Below, piece by piece: positions 5,039 through 34,703 of a DNA stretch of 38,963 nt. Numbering within the stretch: the stretch's first letter is position 1; each line of letters begins with the position of its first letter. The notes under the pieces are model-generated. The model made no database searches. It saw nothing but the letters and a program-made list of their open reading frames with translations, and was not told the origin of the DNA. Origin of the DNA: Bacteroidota bacterium. GTDB taxonomy: Bacteria; Bacteroidota; Bacteroidia; Palsa-965. The position numbers and the translations under genes were made by a program. The stretch spans positions 31,333 through 70,295 of the forward strand of contig VBWE01000052.1 in NCBI GenBank assembly GCA_006218065.1, written 5' to 3'.

Positions 5039-5105
5039 CGAATTATACAGACAAAAAGCCCGAACCGCTAACATAGGCTTAACCCGAAATGACGGGGATC
5101 TGTTA

Positions 5106-5266
5106 GAGCCTGTTAGGAATTTGTTTTTCGAGGTTTCCGGAGTGTATTTTTTGATCAATTGAGGCGCTTTTTGAGCAAGTAGTTGGATACTACAGGCGAA
5201 AAAAGCAACGAAGAGTGAGCAAAAAAGACACCCTGAAAGCCGGAAGGATAATTTCCTAACAGGCTC
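5106..5266. mobile_element. MITE-like element, copy A (161 bp)
   Basis: The element is bounded by inverted repeats of the form GAGCCTGTTAGGAA (5106-5119), with the complement at 5253-5266, and by a 3-bp duplication TTA (5103-5105 and 5267-5269). It contains no ORF. The centre folds: GCTTTTT (5166-5172) pairs with AAAAAGC (5200-5206), enclosing GTAGT-TGGAT-ACTAC (5179-5193). Farther out, TCCGG, GTGT and TTTTTTG on the left have complements on the right. A diverged inverted copy lies at 12925-13119. TNA duplications and GAG ends recall the IS1031/ISL2 groups of the IS5 family, but no transposase is present to prove this. The rest of 5039-5374 holds nothing I can identify. Confidence 0.75.
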
Positions 5267-5374
5267 TTAAATCAAAGTGTAGTGCATTTGATTAACTTTG
5301 ATACTAAGCGAAAGAATGGTGCTTCTAAGCCATCTTTCGTTAAATCTCAAACTGTTAATTTTAGTAATACACGA

Positions 5375-7647: not shown

Positions 7648-7793
7648 TTTATAGAGTATTCGCTCTTCACCGCAGGGACGCAACTAACTGCTGTAAAACA
7701 GACTAAGCTATTCGACGACTCAGTCGTCGAATAGCGAAGACGCTGGAAAACAGATTTTCCCCGCGTCTCTGCGGTGAATTTTTGAACTATAAA
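7648..7793. repeat. Nested intergenic inverted repeat
   Basis: Three nested palindromes share one centre. The outer arms are TTTATAG (7648-7654) and CTATAAA (7787-7793). The middle arms are TTCACCGCAGGGACGC (7666-7681) and its complement at 7763-7778, with one mismatch. The innermost is a perfect 14-bp-arm palindrome with a one-base centre (7707-7735, core TTCGACGACT). The structure fills the gap between two co-directional genes. There is no T-tract, so it is not a simple terminator. CACCGCAGAGACGC-type words are a common bacterial repeat theme. Confidence 0.75.
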
Positions 7794-12880: not shown

Positions 12881-12924
12881 CTGTGTTTTTTTGATTGAAC
12901 GGGTTGTTCAACCGTTTTGTTTCA

Positions 12925-13119
12925 GAGGCTGTTAGGAAATTGTCCTTCCGGCTTCCAGCAGGTCTTTTTCATCCATACTTCGTTGCTTTTTTCGCCTGTA
13001 GCCGCCTGCTACTTACTCAAAAAGCGCCCCTGCCTCCGCCGTAGCGGCTACGCGCAGGCAGGTCGTCTGGATGAAAAATCCCTCGCTGTAATCTCGAAAA
13101 ACAAATTCCTAACAGCCTC
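12925..13119. mobile_element. MITE-like element, copy B (195 bp, inverted relative to copy A)
   Basis: The ends are GAGGCTGTTAGGAA (12925-12938) and its near-complement at 13104-13119, flanked by TCA duplications (12922-12924 and 13120-13122). Read on the minus strand it aligns with copy A at both ends and in the centre. The hairpin is GTAGC-AGGCG-GCTAC instead of GTAGT-TGGAT-ACTAC. It carries a REP-like palindrome at 13029-13062 (CCTGCCT to AGGCAGG arms) that copy A lacks. Its right end supplies the last codons and stop of the hydrolase gene. Confidence 0.75.
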
Positions 13120-13882
13120 TCAGGAAATCGATGAGCGCATCCCAGTATTCCTGCCTGCATTCCGAAACGGGCCAGATCGCTTTGCTGCCGTGTTTCCCTT
13201 CGGAAGCGGGAATAAATATGGTTTTGTTTTTTCCGGGAACAGTATTGAACAGGTTTTTCAGATCCGACGATTCGTTGCGCGACGAAGTCATGAATACCGG
13301 CATGGTCAGTTTTTTACAGTAGTCGGCGATTTTAAATTTGCCCGTGAAGTATTCGCCCGGACTGAAACTGATCACGGACTTTACTTTTTCCGGGTAAGTC
13401 GCGGCGACTTTCAGGACAAGCGCGGCAGAGTAGGAGCTTCCGACCAGGATAACCGGTTTTTTGGTGGCAGCGTAAATATAATTCAGCGCAGCAACGATAT
13501 CCTGTTCCGCATCCGCGAAGCCGGTTTCTTTTTTTGCTTTTTCCGCCGCTTCCGCAGTTTCGTTTTCGATGCCGTTCGCGATTTTGCCGGAACGCTGGTC
13601 GATGGCGAGGCAATTGTACCCGAGTTTGGCCAGCTGCGGCCCGGTTTCGAGATATTCTCCCTTACTGTACCGAGCCTGGTGGCAAAGCAGTATCCAGGGA
13701 TCGGATGTTTTGCCTTTGAATTCCCAGCCGGTAACGGTAAGGCTGTCGAGCGAAGGAAAACGGACCGCGGTAACGGTAATGGTATCGTCCTTGGGCAAAC
13801 GCAGCGTATCGGTTTGTTGCGCCTGTGCCGCTGCAGCAAATACACCGGAAAGCATCAGCAGGATCGTCAGCGTCTTTTTCAT
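13109..13882 (-). CDS. Alpha/beta hydrolase, exported; 3' end supplied by MITE copy B
   Basis: The 257-residue protein has a signal peptide (MKKTLTILLMLSGVFAAAAQ) and an alpha/beta-hydrolase fold. ILLCHQARYSKGEY carries the oxyanion region, GSSYS at 148-152 holds the nucleophile Ser150, and EGKHG gives His231 as the likely catalytic base. The substrate is unknown and the cellular place is periplasm or cell surface. The last residues (R255-G256-C257) and the stop come from the inverted repeat of MITE copy B. Removing the element and one TCA copy restores a frame ending LKQNG and then TGA. The start fits a TAnnTTTG box at 13900-13907. Confidence 0.85.
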   Translation of the reverse strand: MKKTLTILLMLSGVFAAAAQAQQTDTLRLPKDDTITVTAVRFPSLDSLTVTGWEFKGKTSDPWILLCHQARYSKGEYLETGPQLAKLGYNCLAIDQRSGKIANGIENETAEAAEKAKKETGFADAEQDIVAALNYIYAATKKPVILVGSSYSAALVLKVAATYPEKVKSVISFSPGEYFTGKFKIADYCKKLTMPVFMTSSRNESSDLKNLFNTVPGKNKTIFIPASEGKHGSKAIWPVSECRQEYWDALIDFLRGC

Positions 13883-23703: not shown

Positions 23704-23946
23704 GTATGTTTAAAATTATGTCTCCTGGAATGCGGGTAGCTCGTTTTTCAATATGCGCTTTGTCCAGTTTGCAGTTGGCAGTTTGCAGTTGGCAGTTGTT
23801 TAAACGGGAGCAGGCAGATTTTGACGACATCCCTGTAATACCAAAACTGCAAACTGTAAACTGCAAACTGCAAACTGAAGCCAAACTGATTCCGACGATA
23901 ACCGGTCTCCCTGGTAATAATCTCTCCGGAGGAATTTTAAACATAC
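23704..23946 (+). repeat. Quasi-palindromic heptamer-repeat element, copy 1
   Basis: The outer arms are GTATGTTTAAAATT (23704-23717) and AATTTTAAACATAC (23933-23946). The inner left arm is five tandem heptamers of the form CAGTTKG (23765-23799). The inner right arm is five complementary heptamers of the form YAAACTG (23843-23877). The element runs from two bases after the LRR stop to eight bases before the glycosyltransferase ATG and its right end contains GGAGG. Both ends match those of the element at 33839-34058 when each is read in the direction of transcription. Confidence 0.75.
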
Positions 23947-29630: not shown

Positions 29631-29809
29631 GATTGCCGATTTGCGATTGCCGATTTTGGATTGGGATTAAAAATAAACGTTAGCGTCTTTGCGCCTTCGC
29701 GGTAAAGATTGTAATCCGGCTTTTACCGCCAAGATGCTAAAGCGCTATCCGGTTCAAAATGCGGAAGCAAGTGTGTCAATCGCAAATCGGCAATCCACAA
29801 TCGAAAATT
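29631..29809. repeat. Nested inverted repeat with heptamer arms
   Basis: The outer arms GATTGCCGATTTGCGATTG (29631-29649) and their perfect complement (29777-29795) are built of heptamers such as GATTGCC and GATTTGC. They extend to 29665 on the left and 29809 on the right. Inside, TTAGCGTCTT...GCGGTAAA (29680-29706) faces its near-complement (29722-29740). It fills the gap between the TonB receptor and the SIMPL gene. No terminator or ORF is seen there. Confidence 0.75.
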
Positions 29810-29831: not shown

Positions 29832-32240
29832 TCAAAACTTTAAAGTGAGCATCGTCATGAAATTGAGCCCGGCCTGCGGATAAACATAATTTTCCGTGAT
29901 CAGTTCATTGCCGTACTGGTAACTGAAGGTGTACCCGTTCGAAGAATACATCGTATTCAGCAGGTTGTTCAGCTGGAACGCGAGCCCGATTTCCCGGATT
30001 TTTTTCAGCGAAAATTTATAGCCGAAACGCATATCGCTTATGAAATATGCATCCAGTTTCCGGTTATCGCTGGCCGTATTGTCGAGGAACTGTTCGCCTA
30101 CGTATTTACCCGTGAACGCGATGGACGCGCCTTTGCAGGGTTCGTACTCCAGCTTCGCAGCCCCGATGGCCGCAGGTGAAAATGCGATGTCGGTTTCAGC
30201 ATACATGAACAGCAATTGTCCGCCGTTATCGTAATCGTCGATGAACTCTTCGAAATCCAGGATCTTGTTCTGGCTCAGCGTCGCATTACCCGAAAGGCTC
30301 AGTTTCGGAATCATTTTCCAGTTCACTTCCAGTTCCACTCCGCGGCGGAAACTCTTGTCCACGTTTGTACGTGTGTATGAACCTACATCGTTCACTTTAC
30401 CGGTAAGCACGAGCTGATTTTTATAATTCATGTAATACAGGTTGACCCCGGCCTGCACTTTATTCCCGTTGAATTTCCAGCCGGCTTCCGCATCCTGCAG
30501 CGATTCGTGTTCGGGGCGCGAGGCAGGACTCGACTGCGTATAATCGTCGCGGTTCGGTTCTTTATTGCCCATGCTGAATGACGCGTACACGGCATGTTTA
30601 TCATTCACGTCATAACGCAGACCGGCTTTCGGGTTGAAAAAATTCAGCTGCACGGATTGATCAACGGGCAGCGCATTCTGATCGATCCCGAGAAAATCGT
30701 AGCCGATCATGCGGTACTGGATATCGCCAAACAGGTTTAATTTATTCCCGGCGGCGTACCCGGCTTTGGCGTACACGTTCACATCGGTTTTCTGCGCATC
30801 GTTGTTGTAATATTCCCAGTCCATGGAACTGTTGCTCGCATACTGCGCCCAGATCACACGACCGAAATGGCTGCCGTCGTAGCGGTTCGCGCCGCCGCCG
30901 ATGTTCGCGGAAAAACGTTTGTTGCCGTTGTAGTTCAGCGACCAGGTCATCCCGTAAAAATCATTGTCAAGCCATTTGCGCCGGATGAGGTCGCTTGTCG
31001 TGATGGTGTCGTTGCCGATGATCGCCGCTTCGATATTGTAATCGTAAAGCGTTTCATCGTCTTTGTATTCCTCGTAATAACCGCGGCCTTTCGTATAATG
31101 CAGCGCCGTGTTGAGATGCCAGTTTTCTTTAATGCGCTGCGCATAGTGAAGCTGGTAATTATCCTGGTGATAATTATCCGTCTGGTTTTCGTAAAACAAA
31201 AGATTGCCGCGTGCGTCGGTATGCAGCCCGGCGGCGTTGTAGGTCCTGTTGGTATCGGCATACGATTCCGGCACGCCGTACCAGGCCTGGTATGTTTTTT
31301 CAAGCCCGGAAAAAACCACCGCTTTCACGATGGCTTTCTTCCCGTAATATCCGCCGGAGAGATAATACGATTTCATATCGGCGGAAGCGCGGTCGATATA
31401 CCCGTCGGAAAGAATCCGCGACAAACGCCCGTCAACGGTCCAGTGATCGTTCAGCAATCCCGTTCCGAAATTCACGGTCTGCCGCTGCGTATTGAACGAT
31501 CCGTAACCGCTCATAATTTCGCCGTATGCTTTTTCGCGCATCGTGCTGGTTTGCATATTCAGCGACGCGCCGAATGCGCCCGCACCGTTGGTCGATGTAC
31601 CTACGCCGCGCTGCAGTTGAATATTGTCGGTTGACGAAAGCAGGTCCGGGAAATCGACCCAGAACGCGCCCTGCGATTCGGCATCGTTCACAGGAATCCC
31701 GTTGATCGTTACATTGATCCGCGTGCCGTCCGTTCCGCGGACACGGATGCCGGTGTAACCGATTCCTGCGCCCGCATCCGAAGTGGTGACGACCGACGGA
31801 AGCTGGTTGAGCACATACGGAACATCCTGCCCGAAATTCTGTTTCTCCAGTTCTTCTTTCGAAACATTCGTAAAGGCGAGTCCGGATTTATCGGATGCGC
31901 GCGTGGAAATCACGATCACTTCATCGATCACTTTCGCATTCGGTTCCAGTTGAAAATCGTGCGTGGTGTTTTCGTTTACGTCGATCGTATCGGTCAGCGG
32001 GCGGTATCCGAGCAGCCGGATATACACCGCGTATTTTCCCGCTTTGGGCAGTACGAGATTGTATTTCCCGTCGATGCCGGATTGCACGCCGATAAAAGTT
32101 CCTGATACGCCGATGCCGGCAAAAGCGAGCGGGTTGTTGTTTTCCTTGTCGGTCACACTGCCCGACAGTGTAACCTGTGCCGATAATGTTGCCGGCAGCA
32201 GCAGGGCAGGCAAAGCCAAAGCCCGGATTAATTTTCTCAT
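29832..32240 (-). CDS. TonB-dependent outer-membrane receptor under TPP riboswitch control
   Basis: The 802-residue protein has a signal peptide (MRKLIRALALPALLLPATLSA). A CarboxypepD_reg-like domain lies at about 25-105 (SGSVTDKENNNPLAFAGIGV, YIRLLGYRP). The plug domain is at about 115-230 (VLNQLPSVVTTSDAGAGIGY, IRVRGTDGTRINVTINGIPV, GVGTSTNGAGAFGASLN). The 22-strand barrel ends in phenylalanine (MLTLKF). The TPP riboswitch 58 bases upstream indicates import of thiamin or a precursor, as for riboswitch-linked receptors of this phylum; nothing in the plug itself gives the ligand. PnuC-type transporter and NadR-like kinase genes lie upstream on the same strand. Confidence 0.92.
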   Translation of the reverse strand: MRKLIRALALPALLLPATLSAQVTLSGSVTDKENNNPLAFAGIGVSGTFIGVQSGIDGKYNLVLPKAGKYAVYIRLLGYRPLTDTIDVNENTTHDFQLEPNAKVIDEVIVISTRASDKSGLAFTNVSKEELEKQNFGQDVPYVLNQLPSVVTTSDAGAGIGYTGIRVRGTDGTRINVTINGIPVNDAESQGAFWVDFPDLLSSTDNIQLQRGVGTSTNGAGAFGASLNMQTSTMREKAYGEIMSGYGSFNTQRQTVNFGTGLLNDHWTVDGRLSRILSDGYIDRASADMKSYYLSGGYYGKKAIVKAVVFSGLEKTYQAWYGVPESYADTNRTYNAAGLHTDARGNLLFYENQTDNYHQDNYQLHYAQRIKENWHLNTALHYTKGRGYYEEYKDDETLYDYNIEAAIIGNDTITTSDLIRRKWLDNDFYGMTWSLNYNGNKRFSANIGGGANRYDGSHFGRVIWAQYASNSSMDWEYYNNDAQKTDVNVYAKAGYAAGNKLNLFGDIQYRMIGYDFLGIDQNALPVDQSVQLNFFNPKAGLRYDVNDKHAVYASFSMGNKEPNRDDYTQSSPASRPEHESLQDAEAGWKFNGNKVQAGVNLYYMNYKNQLVLTGKVNDVGSYTRTNVDKSFRRGVELEVNWKMIPKLSLSGNATLSQNKILDFEEFIDDYDNGGQLLFMYAETDIAFSPAAIGAAKLEYEPCKGASIAFTGKYVGEQFLDNTASDNRKLDAYFISDMRFGYKFSLKKIREIGLAFQLNNLLNTMYSSNGYTFSYQYGNELITENYVYPQAGLNFMTMLTLKF

Positions 32241-33838: not shown

Positions 33839-34058
33839 GTTTAAAATTCCTGCGGAATAAATCGTTTTACCAGATATGAGATATGGGACTTGAGATTTGA
33901 GACTCCGTATTCCATCAAATGTATATATGCTTTCGTTTGCTGCTAATCATGCTGATAGTTCGTTCAGCAGGTCTCAAATCTCAAGTCTCATATCTCATAT
34001 CTGGTACAACAGACTTATTGAATTATTTACTTGTGTTTCCCGGATCATAATTTTAAAC
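33839..34058 (-). repeat. Quasi-palindromic heptamer-repeat element, copy 2
   Basis: The outer arms are GTTTAAAATT (33839-33848) and AATTTTAAAC (34049-34058). The inner arms are 36 bp with one mismatch (33868-33903 and 33971-34006) and are built of heptamers AGATATG, GGACTTG and AGATTTG; the loop is 67 bases. Read in the direction of transcription (minus), it starts GTTTAAAATTATG soon after the TenI/ThiE-like stop and ends CAGGAATTTTAAAC shortly before the pnuC ATG. This is the same order as the element at 23704-23946, though the heptamers differ. Confidence 0.8.
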
Positions 34059-34070
34059 AGTTTCCGGACC

Positions 34071-34703
34071 TTATTCCGCTTTGATGCCGAGTTCGGCGCA
34101 CTTGTCCAGCACACTTATAAAATTGGCCAGCGGATCGCCTGCTCTCCATAAAAAACTGTGGAAGGCCATGCCGTGAAAACCGAGGTCGCGTATGTTCGCG
34201 ATATGCTCCAGGCTGATTCCTCCGCGCGCAACAATTTTTACATGCGGATTTTTTTCGATCGCCGTGCGGAGGCTGTGCTGGTTGTAGCCGGCATGAAAAC
34301 CGCCGCTCAGCGATTCGAAGATCGGGCTCAGGAAAACGTAGCTGAATTTTCCTTCATCTTCATAAACATGCGCGAGCTTGCTGAGTGAAGTGCTTTGCGT
34401 GAAACTGCTGCGCCGCAGGTGAAGCATACGCAGGCGGAACCAGGTGGAGAATTTTCTCCTCCGGTGCGCGCGCGTAAGGTGTATGCCGCGAAGTTTCAGT
34501 GATCCCGCCAGGTTATGATGTGAATGAATGACGATACGGTCGTGAAAATGCGCGGGAATTTTTTCGATCATCTGCCGCATTTCTTTCGTCGTCATGTCCG
34601 GCTTGCGCAGGTGGAACGTATTCAATCCGTGCTCAAAAAGCTGCGTGATGATTTCGTGTTCTTTTTCAATAGTCTTGGAAGACGAAATAACGATCAGTTT
34701 CAT
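34071..34703 (-). CDS. Thiamine phosphate synthase-like protein (TenI/ThiE family), divergent
   Basis: The 210-residue TIM-barrel protein follows the ThiE/TenI order: LNTFHLRKPDMTTKEM, FHDRIVIHSHHNLAG, LRGIHLTRAH, YVFLSPIFESLS, and VKIVARGGISLEHI. Several catalytic-site residues of true ThiE are altered. The QxRxK strand reads HLRKP, the ND pair reads HSH, and PTxTK reads ESLSG. It may be a TenI-type aminase/isomerase or a variant synthase. A thiamin link fits the nearby TPP riboswitch. It lies 12 bases after the GGGP synthase gene. Confidence 0.72.
   Translation of the reverse strand: MKLIVISSSKTIEKEHEIITQLFEHGLNTFHLRKPDMTTKEMRQMIEKIPAHFHDRIVIHSHHNLAGSLKLRGIHLTRAHRRRKFSTWFRLRMLHLRRSSFTQSTSLSKLAHVYEDEGKFSYVFLSPIFESLSGGFHAGYNQHSLRTAIEKNPHVKIVARGGISLEHIANIRDLGFHGMAFHSFLWRAGDPLANFISVLDKCAELGIKAE

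Follow-up and report, generated by a model that had tools for sequence, protein, structure and literature searches.

Mosaic hairpin elements with conserved inverted ends lie at stop codons in a single Bacteroidota genome

Two intergenic regions of the window (the whole 38,963-nucleotide stretch analysed here) are occupied by long hairpin elements with conserved ends (Table 1). Copy 1 follows a leucine-rich-repeat (LRR) protein gene and precedes a family 4 glycosyltransferase gene, while copy 2, read from the other strand, separates a TMP-TENI (thiE-like) gene from a pnuC-like gene. Both hairpins are delimited by a GTTTAAAATT...AATTTTAAAC pair. Exactly four matches to the 10-mer GTTTAAAATT exist in the window, all of them in these two inverted pairs, where 0.48 would be expected and none of 100 shuffles gave more than three. 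Compared with shuffled sequence, both copies are much more stably folded (z -6.3 for copy 1 and -9.0 for copy 2).

Table 1. Coordinates of the two elements and their parts in the window.
Feature	Position	Strand	Details
Copy 1, whole element	23708..23942	+	235 bp, conserved end to conserved end
Copy 1, neighbouring genes	LRR gene stop ends 23701; glycosyltransferase gene start 23955		
Copy 1, left conserved end	23708..23720	+	GTTTAAAATTATG, minority 'ATG' variant, then CTCCTGGAA
Copy 1, left hairpin arm	23765..23797	+	heptamers CAGTTTG/CAGTTGG; 7-base periodicity 0.88
Copy 1, loop module L1	23798..23842	+	reverse orientation
Copy 1, right hairpin arm	23845..23877	+	91% complementary to left arm
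Copy 1, degenerate box	23886..23895	+	CTGATTCCGA, degenerate version of family box CTATTCCGA (reverse of TCGGAATAG)
Copy 1, right conserved end	23924..23942	+	CTCCGGAGGAATTTTAAAC
Copy 2, whole element	33839..34058	-	220 bp
Copy 2, neighbouring genes	thiE-like gene stop at 34071; pnuC-like gene start 33823	-	both genes on this strand
Copy 2, left conserved end	34046..34058	-	GTTTAAAATTATG
Copy 2, first arm (as transcribed)	33971..34010	-	heptamers GAGATAT/GAGACTT/GAGATTT
Copy 2, second arm	33864..33903	-	95% complementary to first arm
Copy 2, right conserved end	33839..33857	-	TTCCGCAGGAATTTTAAAC

A preliminary description of this DNA had reported two copies with conserved ends flanked by co-directional genes, a 10-mer paired at the borders of just these two intergenic regions in a way unlikely to arise by chance, and inner arms that differ completely between the copies. 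All three points agree with the data above. Its limits for copy 1 need a small correction: the ends are present, but four bases on each side (23704-23707 and 23943-23946) lie outside the conserved core. The left end it had offered as a signature, GTTTAAAATTATG, does recur in the genome but is a minority variant, the usual end on both sides being GTTTAAAATTCCTCCG.

We searched the host genome (5.26 Mb in 81 contigs), with reversed sequence as the control. The right-end word GAATTTTAAAC was found 92 times, as compared to once in the control, while GGAATTTTAAAC was found 85 times and GTTTAAAATTATG seven times, with none in the control for either. Matches to the end motifs map to about 75 loci, a few of which are possibly chance or coding matches. 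The stretches around them yielded 57 candidate pairs. In 28 of these both 10-mers are exact, and 24 carry a single mismatch over the two; the reversed control gave three loose pairs. Five doubtful pairs were dropped, and the remaining 52 paired elements, 57-345 bp long, were analysed. The idea of a family had been staked beforehand on the presence of other such end pairs in the same genome, and these 52 elements speak strongly for it.

The family is lineage-specific and private to this one genome. The word GTTTAAAATTCCTYCG occurs 47 times in the host and at most once in each of 394 other genomes of the class, and matches to the ends stay at background level both in eleven genomes from the host's own taxonomic family and across the class (394 genomes). 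Plasmids and phages gave no match to the family and viral contigs gave two; Rfam covariance models at the gathering score gave no match in the window. A scan of genome contigs with a loop word returned six scattered single matches in unrelated organisms, which were taken as chance.

All 52 elements are built as mosaics between 12-bp inverted ends, GTTTAAAATTCC, at both borders. The usual order of modules runs from GTTTAAAATTCCTCCG through a subterminal segment, the TCGGAATAG box and one arm to the loop, and from there through the other arm, CTATTCCGA and another subterminal segment to CGGAGGAATTTTAAAC. The subterminal segments are CGTACCTGTTACAAAACCAGGAAC, GAGCCGTTTTACAGGAAAACTGTT or relatives of these, or are lacking; the arms are composed of words of 6-7 bases (for example GGCAGTC/GGCAGGA/CAGCAG, CAGTTTG, GAGATAT, CGATTTG and CCGTTTA); and three loops recur, in both orientations. 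Loop L1 of copy 1 is common to about 13 other elements, where the arms are often of a different word, and it is combined with at least three arm words. The short elements of 57, 66, 72 and 93 bp apparently lack the inner hairpin. A terminal stem is closed in 50 of the 51 elements folded, with a median z of -7.2.

The modules combine with different degrees of freedom. Left and right subterminal segments assort freely, partners within an element being no more alike than strangers (p = 0.43), while the word type of an arm matches that of its partner (permutation p = 0.0004). For arms of the GGCAG class, partners are no closer to each other than to arms of other copies (p = 0.18), and local arm correction is therefore shown at the level of word type only. 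No convincing bias in loop strand relative to the genes was observed. The suggestion, made from two copies, of retained ends around exchanged inner words extends to the whole set. A fixed polarity with distinct left and right ends, on the other hand, is mostly lost: most copies carry an identical end on both sides, and the loops run both ways.

The core of the ends is far more conserved than its surroundings, although part of its exactness stems from the way it was searched for; the two bases after the core, CC, which were selected only loosely, are 88-89% conserved. We counted 26 core substitutions, each at one end only and none compensated at the opposite end. The core is therefore kept as DNA sequence and not as a base-paired helix, and conservation of this kind points to a putative DNA-binding protein. 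The flanks of the core carry a weak consensus, TNA-GARACT: the outer GAGACT match is 3.6 of 6 at start-facing ends as compared to 1.6 in controls, and the outer six bases are weak at stop-facing ends.

To place the elements relative to genes we used a simple codon-bias gene caller. All 52 are intergenic, with no gene inside. Twenty-eight lie between co-directional, nine between convergent and 15 between divergent genes, a distribution similar to that of background gaps of at least 60 bp (214, 65 and 92, respectively). Placement between co-directional genes, proposed as a family trait, is therefore no rule. The start of copy 1 just after a stop codon, on the other hand, does reflect a rule of the family: 44 of the 46 stop-facing ends are within 15 bp of the stop, whereas random placement in the same gaps gave a mean of 24.2 and a maximum of 32 in 2,000 trials. 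In nine of these 44 ends the TAA of the element's GTTTAAA is itself the stop codon of the gene; the others begin 3-14 bp past the stop, with distances that peak at 5, 6 and 8. Of the 28 elements in co-directional gaps, 27 have the stop within 15 bp and six have the start that close. No such excess is seen among the remaining long hairpins of the host (25 of 63 near a stop, 20.3 at random), and their difference from the family has a Fisher p of 3e-10; the comparison is an approximate one, since the boundary taken for those hairpins is their arm. Between convergent genes the element fills nearly the entire gap in eight of nine cases (0-21 bp left, or overlap), while of the 88 convergent gaps that lack an element, 69 are longer than 21 bp.

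Gene ends were compared with those of a relative. At element E37 the gene ends in NIV*, its V and stop being supplied by the element's GTT TAA, and the relative's gene ends in NII* at the same position. At E30 the gene is five residues shorter than that of the relative and ends in the element, and the other gene ends compared differ by a few residues. The elements therefore lie at ancestral gene ends. A check of syntenic loci for empty sites, suggested in the preliminary description, gave the following result: in G006, from another genus of the same family, the five gene pairs tested (those flanking E11, E20, E26, E30 and E47) are all adjacent without an element, although these empty sites are not base-exact because the relatives compared belong to other genera. 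Where the relative's terminators are readable they are ordinary intrinsic ones, approximately 20-30 nt past the stop (E20, E28 and E48). By the same hairpin criteria, 1.39 Mb of G006 contain 19 hairpins, none with 7-base periodic arms, while 0.70 Mb of the host contain 54 non-family hairpins in addition to the elements, 17 of the 54 having such arms.

The explanation that we favor, and consider probable, is that these are lineage-specific, non-autonomous, mosaic mobile repeats of the MITE/BIME type, with IS5-like outer ends, whose hairpin at the stop codon serves as a transcript 3' end. That they spread by copying is suggested by their high copy number, their absence in relatives and the interchangeability of their modules. 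The outer GARACT, taken with the Porphyromonas MITEs that have GAGACTGTT ends and tandem repeats inside (PMC4596501), would suggest descent from an IS5-type MITE. A recombinase or transposase acting in trans would recognize the conserved core as DNA sequence and join it at gene 3' ends, modules would be shuffled through recombination between copies, and repeat slippage, together with template switching on the hairpin, would keep the arms complementary. After insertion, the hairpin would be carried in the mRNA just past the stop, acting as its 3' end and serving both genes where these converge. Candidate roles for it include a terminator, a 3' stabilizer and a REP-like brake on translation termination.

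As the element takes nearly all of the gap in eight of nine convergent pairs, there is no room in them for another terminator, and we infer that it ends both transcripts unless termination is Rho-dependent. The hairpin is strong, and the element ends were not singled out in a scan for terminators; the dual role stays tentative because the tail, AATTTTAAAC, is a poor U-tract and not a classical one. The 15 copies between divergent genes, where a terminator role is impossible, look like plain insertions.

Several other explanations could be considered. The strongest of them, possible though well short of probable, is that the family consists of decayed IS5-type MITEs with ends of the form TNA/GAGACTGTTTAAAATT that trapped tandem repeats in the manner of BrickBuilt/MITEPgRS, the stop rule then reflecting a TNA target plus selection. 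Length (57-345 bp, non-coding, about 75 loci) and terminal inverted repeats are those of MITEs in general. The outer TNA-GARACT, the GAGACTGTTGCA ends of ISPg4 and MITEPgRS (PMC4596501), a related copy at L069:8091-8241 with perfect ends and a TAA...TAA duplication, and two MITE-like hairpins of the window with GAGSCTGTTAGGAA ends and TTA or TCA duplications all fit an IS5 origin. However, a search for target-site duplications over many lengths and offsets found no excess of matching flanks among the 52 elements. Of the GAGACTGTT-like ends and TNA target of IS5-family MITEs, the elements show a weak outer consensus, TNA-GARACT. No IS5-related transposase gene (Pfam DDE_Tnp_1, DDE_Tnp_1_2 and DUF772), and by these three models no autonomous parent with the same ends, was found in the host genome. 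In addition, the weakness of the outer six bases at stop-facing ends and the spread of stop distances, which are not fixed at 6, do not fit, and a TNA target does not account for the many intergenic TNA sites that stay unoccupied.

A bolder proposal, which we regard as somewhat unlikely, is that the element targets translation stops as such. The candidate recombinase would join the TTTAA-containing end at a stop codon, often providing the stop, and each insertion would swap the native 3' end of the gene for an exchangeable hairpin cassette, making 3' ends interchangeable genome-wide.

It could also be speculated that the elements are not mobile at all: they would be bidirectional terminators or 3' regulatory elements native to the species, which gene conversion has multiplied and selection maintains. 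Stop-codon placement, strong hairpins and filled convergent gaps are consistent with this, but 29% of the elements lie between divergent genes, neither the relatives nor the homologous sites contain them, the terminators readable in the relative are ordinary intrinsic ones, and uncompensated substitutions in the ends are not predicted for a terminator selected as a helix. We consider this explanation unlikely. More doubtful still is that they are REPINs or BIMEs of a RAYT, with REP-like end units mobilized by the Y1 transposases of the genome. Two Y1_Tnp genes are present, one of them next to an L3-related palindrome, and missing duplications together with stop-codon proximity fit REPs; yet GTTTAAAATTCC is absent from both Y1 loci save for one single-mismatch site about 1 kb away, the Y1 gene is not flanked by inverted repeat copies, and the conserved end is a linear core rather than a foot plus palindrome. 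Finally, chance AT-rich 10-mers around unrelated hairpins, suggested by the shortness and composition of the ends, are already refuted by 92 genomic occurrences against one and 52 inverted pairs against three loose control pairs.

In integron attC sites the order of motifs is R'' (RYYYAAC) ... R' (GTTRRRY). An attC identity was rejected, as the order here is reversed (GTTTAAA left, TTTAAAC right) and the copies are dispersed over many contigs.

Viewed as MITE/BIME-like mobile repeats, the elements resemble the REP/BIME sequences of E. coli in being high-copy, intergenic, palindromic mosaics of alternating modules with a large share near stops. As quoted in PMC12306157 from an earlier study, 260 of 496 E. 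coli REPs are within 15 nt of a stop codon, and REPs in this range are reported to stall ribosomes and reduce translation (PMC12306157). The stop-facing ends described here occupy the same range, the hairpin position of a REP-like 3' element. In contrast to E. coli, placement at stops is much more strictly observed (44 of 46), conservation falls on a linear inverted end of 12 bp instead of on the REP palindrome, and the arms are arrays of 6-7-base words. A cognate RAYT arrangement was not found at the two Y1_Tnp loci of the host.

Within the Bacteroidota, the closest likeness is to BrickBuilt and MITEPgRS (MITE464) of Porphyromonas gingivalis, MITE-like elements in which IS5-like ends (GAGACTGTT, GAGACC) enclose variable numbers of tandem repeats (PMC4596501). 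The inner repeats of those elements are 23 or 41 nt long, in direct tandem and with one word per family, and lie 49-591 nt from coding sequences (PMC4596501), whereas here the repeats are 6-7 nt, form two inverted arms, use many words and sit between ends that touch stop codons. Intergenic runs of 7-base words are also known as the STRR of cyanobacteria and the TAACTGA arrays of Beggiatoaceae (PMC4679880); unlike these, the words here form hairpin arms within a bounded element and change from copy to copy.

The stop-codon rule is the notable feature of this family among MITE/BIME-like repeats. It provides a clean, countable set of repeats tied to stops more tightly than E. coli REPs, with dozens of hairpin variants that can be compared, and it raises two testable questions. 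One is which machinery positions palindromic repeats at the ends of genes; the other is what a long hairpin right behind the stop does to termination, mRNA stability and translation in Bacteroidota-like bacteria. With arm words exchanged while the ends stay fixed, the family is also a natural record of palindrome evolution by slippage and template switching.

Several related sequences were observed outside the family. The host is very rich in long non-family hairpins (loci L039-L077), and several of them carry words that also occur in many other bacteria, such as GTCACCCTGAGCGGAGTCGAAGGGTG and ACCACGGAGGCACGGAGAACACAGAG. A search for GCAGTTN word arrays (three repeats) found them in 23 of 395 class genomes from scattered families (loci L156-L185), with 34 matches in G003, of the same family as the host. 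These arrays are mostly plain, with no opposite arm, and some start directly after a stop codon; nine of 25 are near a stop, compared to 10% of random positions, a baseline uncorrected for the arrays being intergenic.

A palindrome, TCGACGACTCAGTCGTCGA or its variant TCGAAGTCTCAGACTTCGA, is present in the loop of a TTCACCGCAG hairpin of the window (7666-7778), at L114 (about 2180-2240) beside a Y1 transposase gene and in loop L3 of five family elements, and is possibly a REP. Two 151-bp MITE-like copies (L069:8091-8241, the one with perfect ends and TAA...TAA, and L037:1361-1511) have GAAGCTGTTTAAAATTCATTTC ends and different interiors, and may link the stop-codon family to an IS5-type MITE. 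Two further IS5-like, MITE-like hairpins of the window (5105-5267 and 12924-13120) form a separate family with AGAGSCTGTTAGGAA ends and apparent 3-bp duplications, TTA and TCA. Lastly, a GATTGCC/GATTTGC heptamer hairpin without GTTTAAAATT ends (29631-29803) encloses a TTTACCGC...GCGGTAAA word pair and lies 24 bp away from the stop codon of the gene at 29832.
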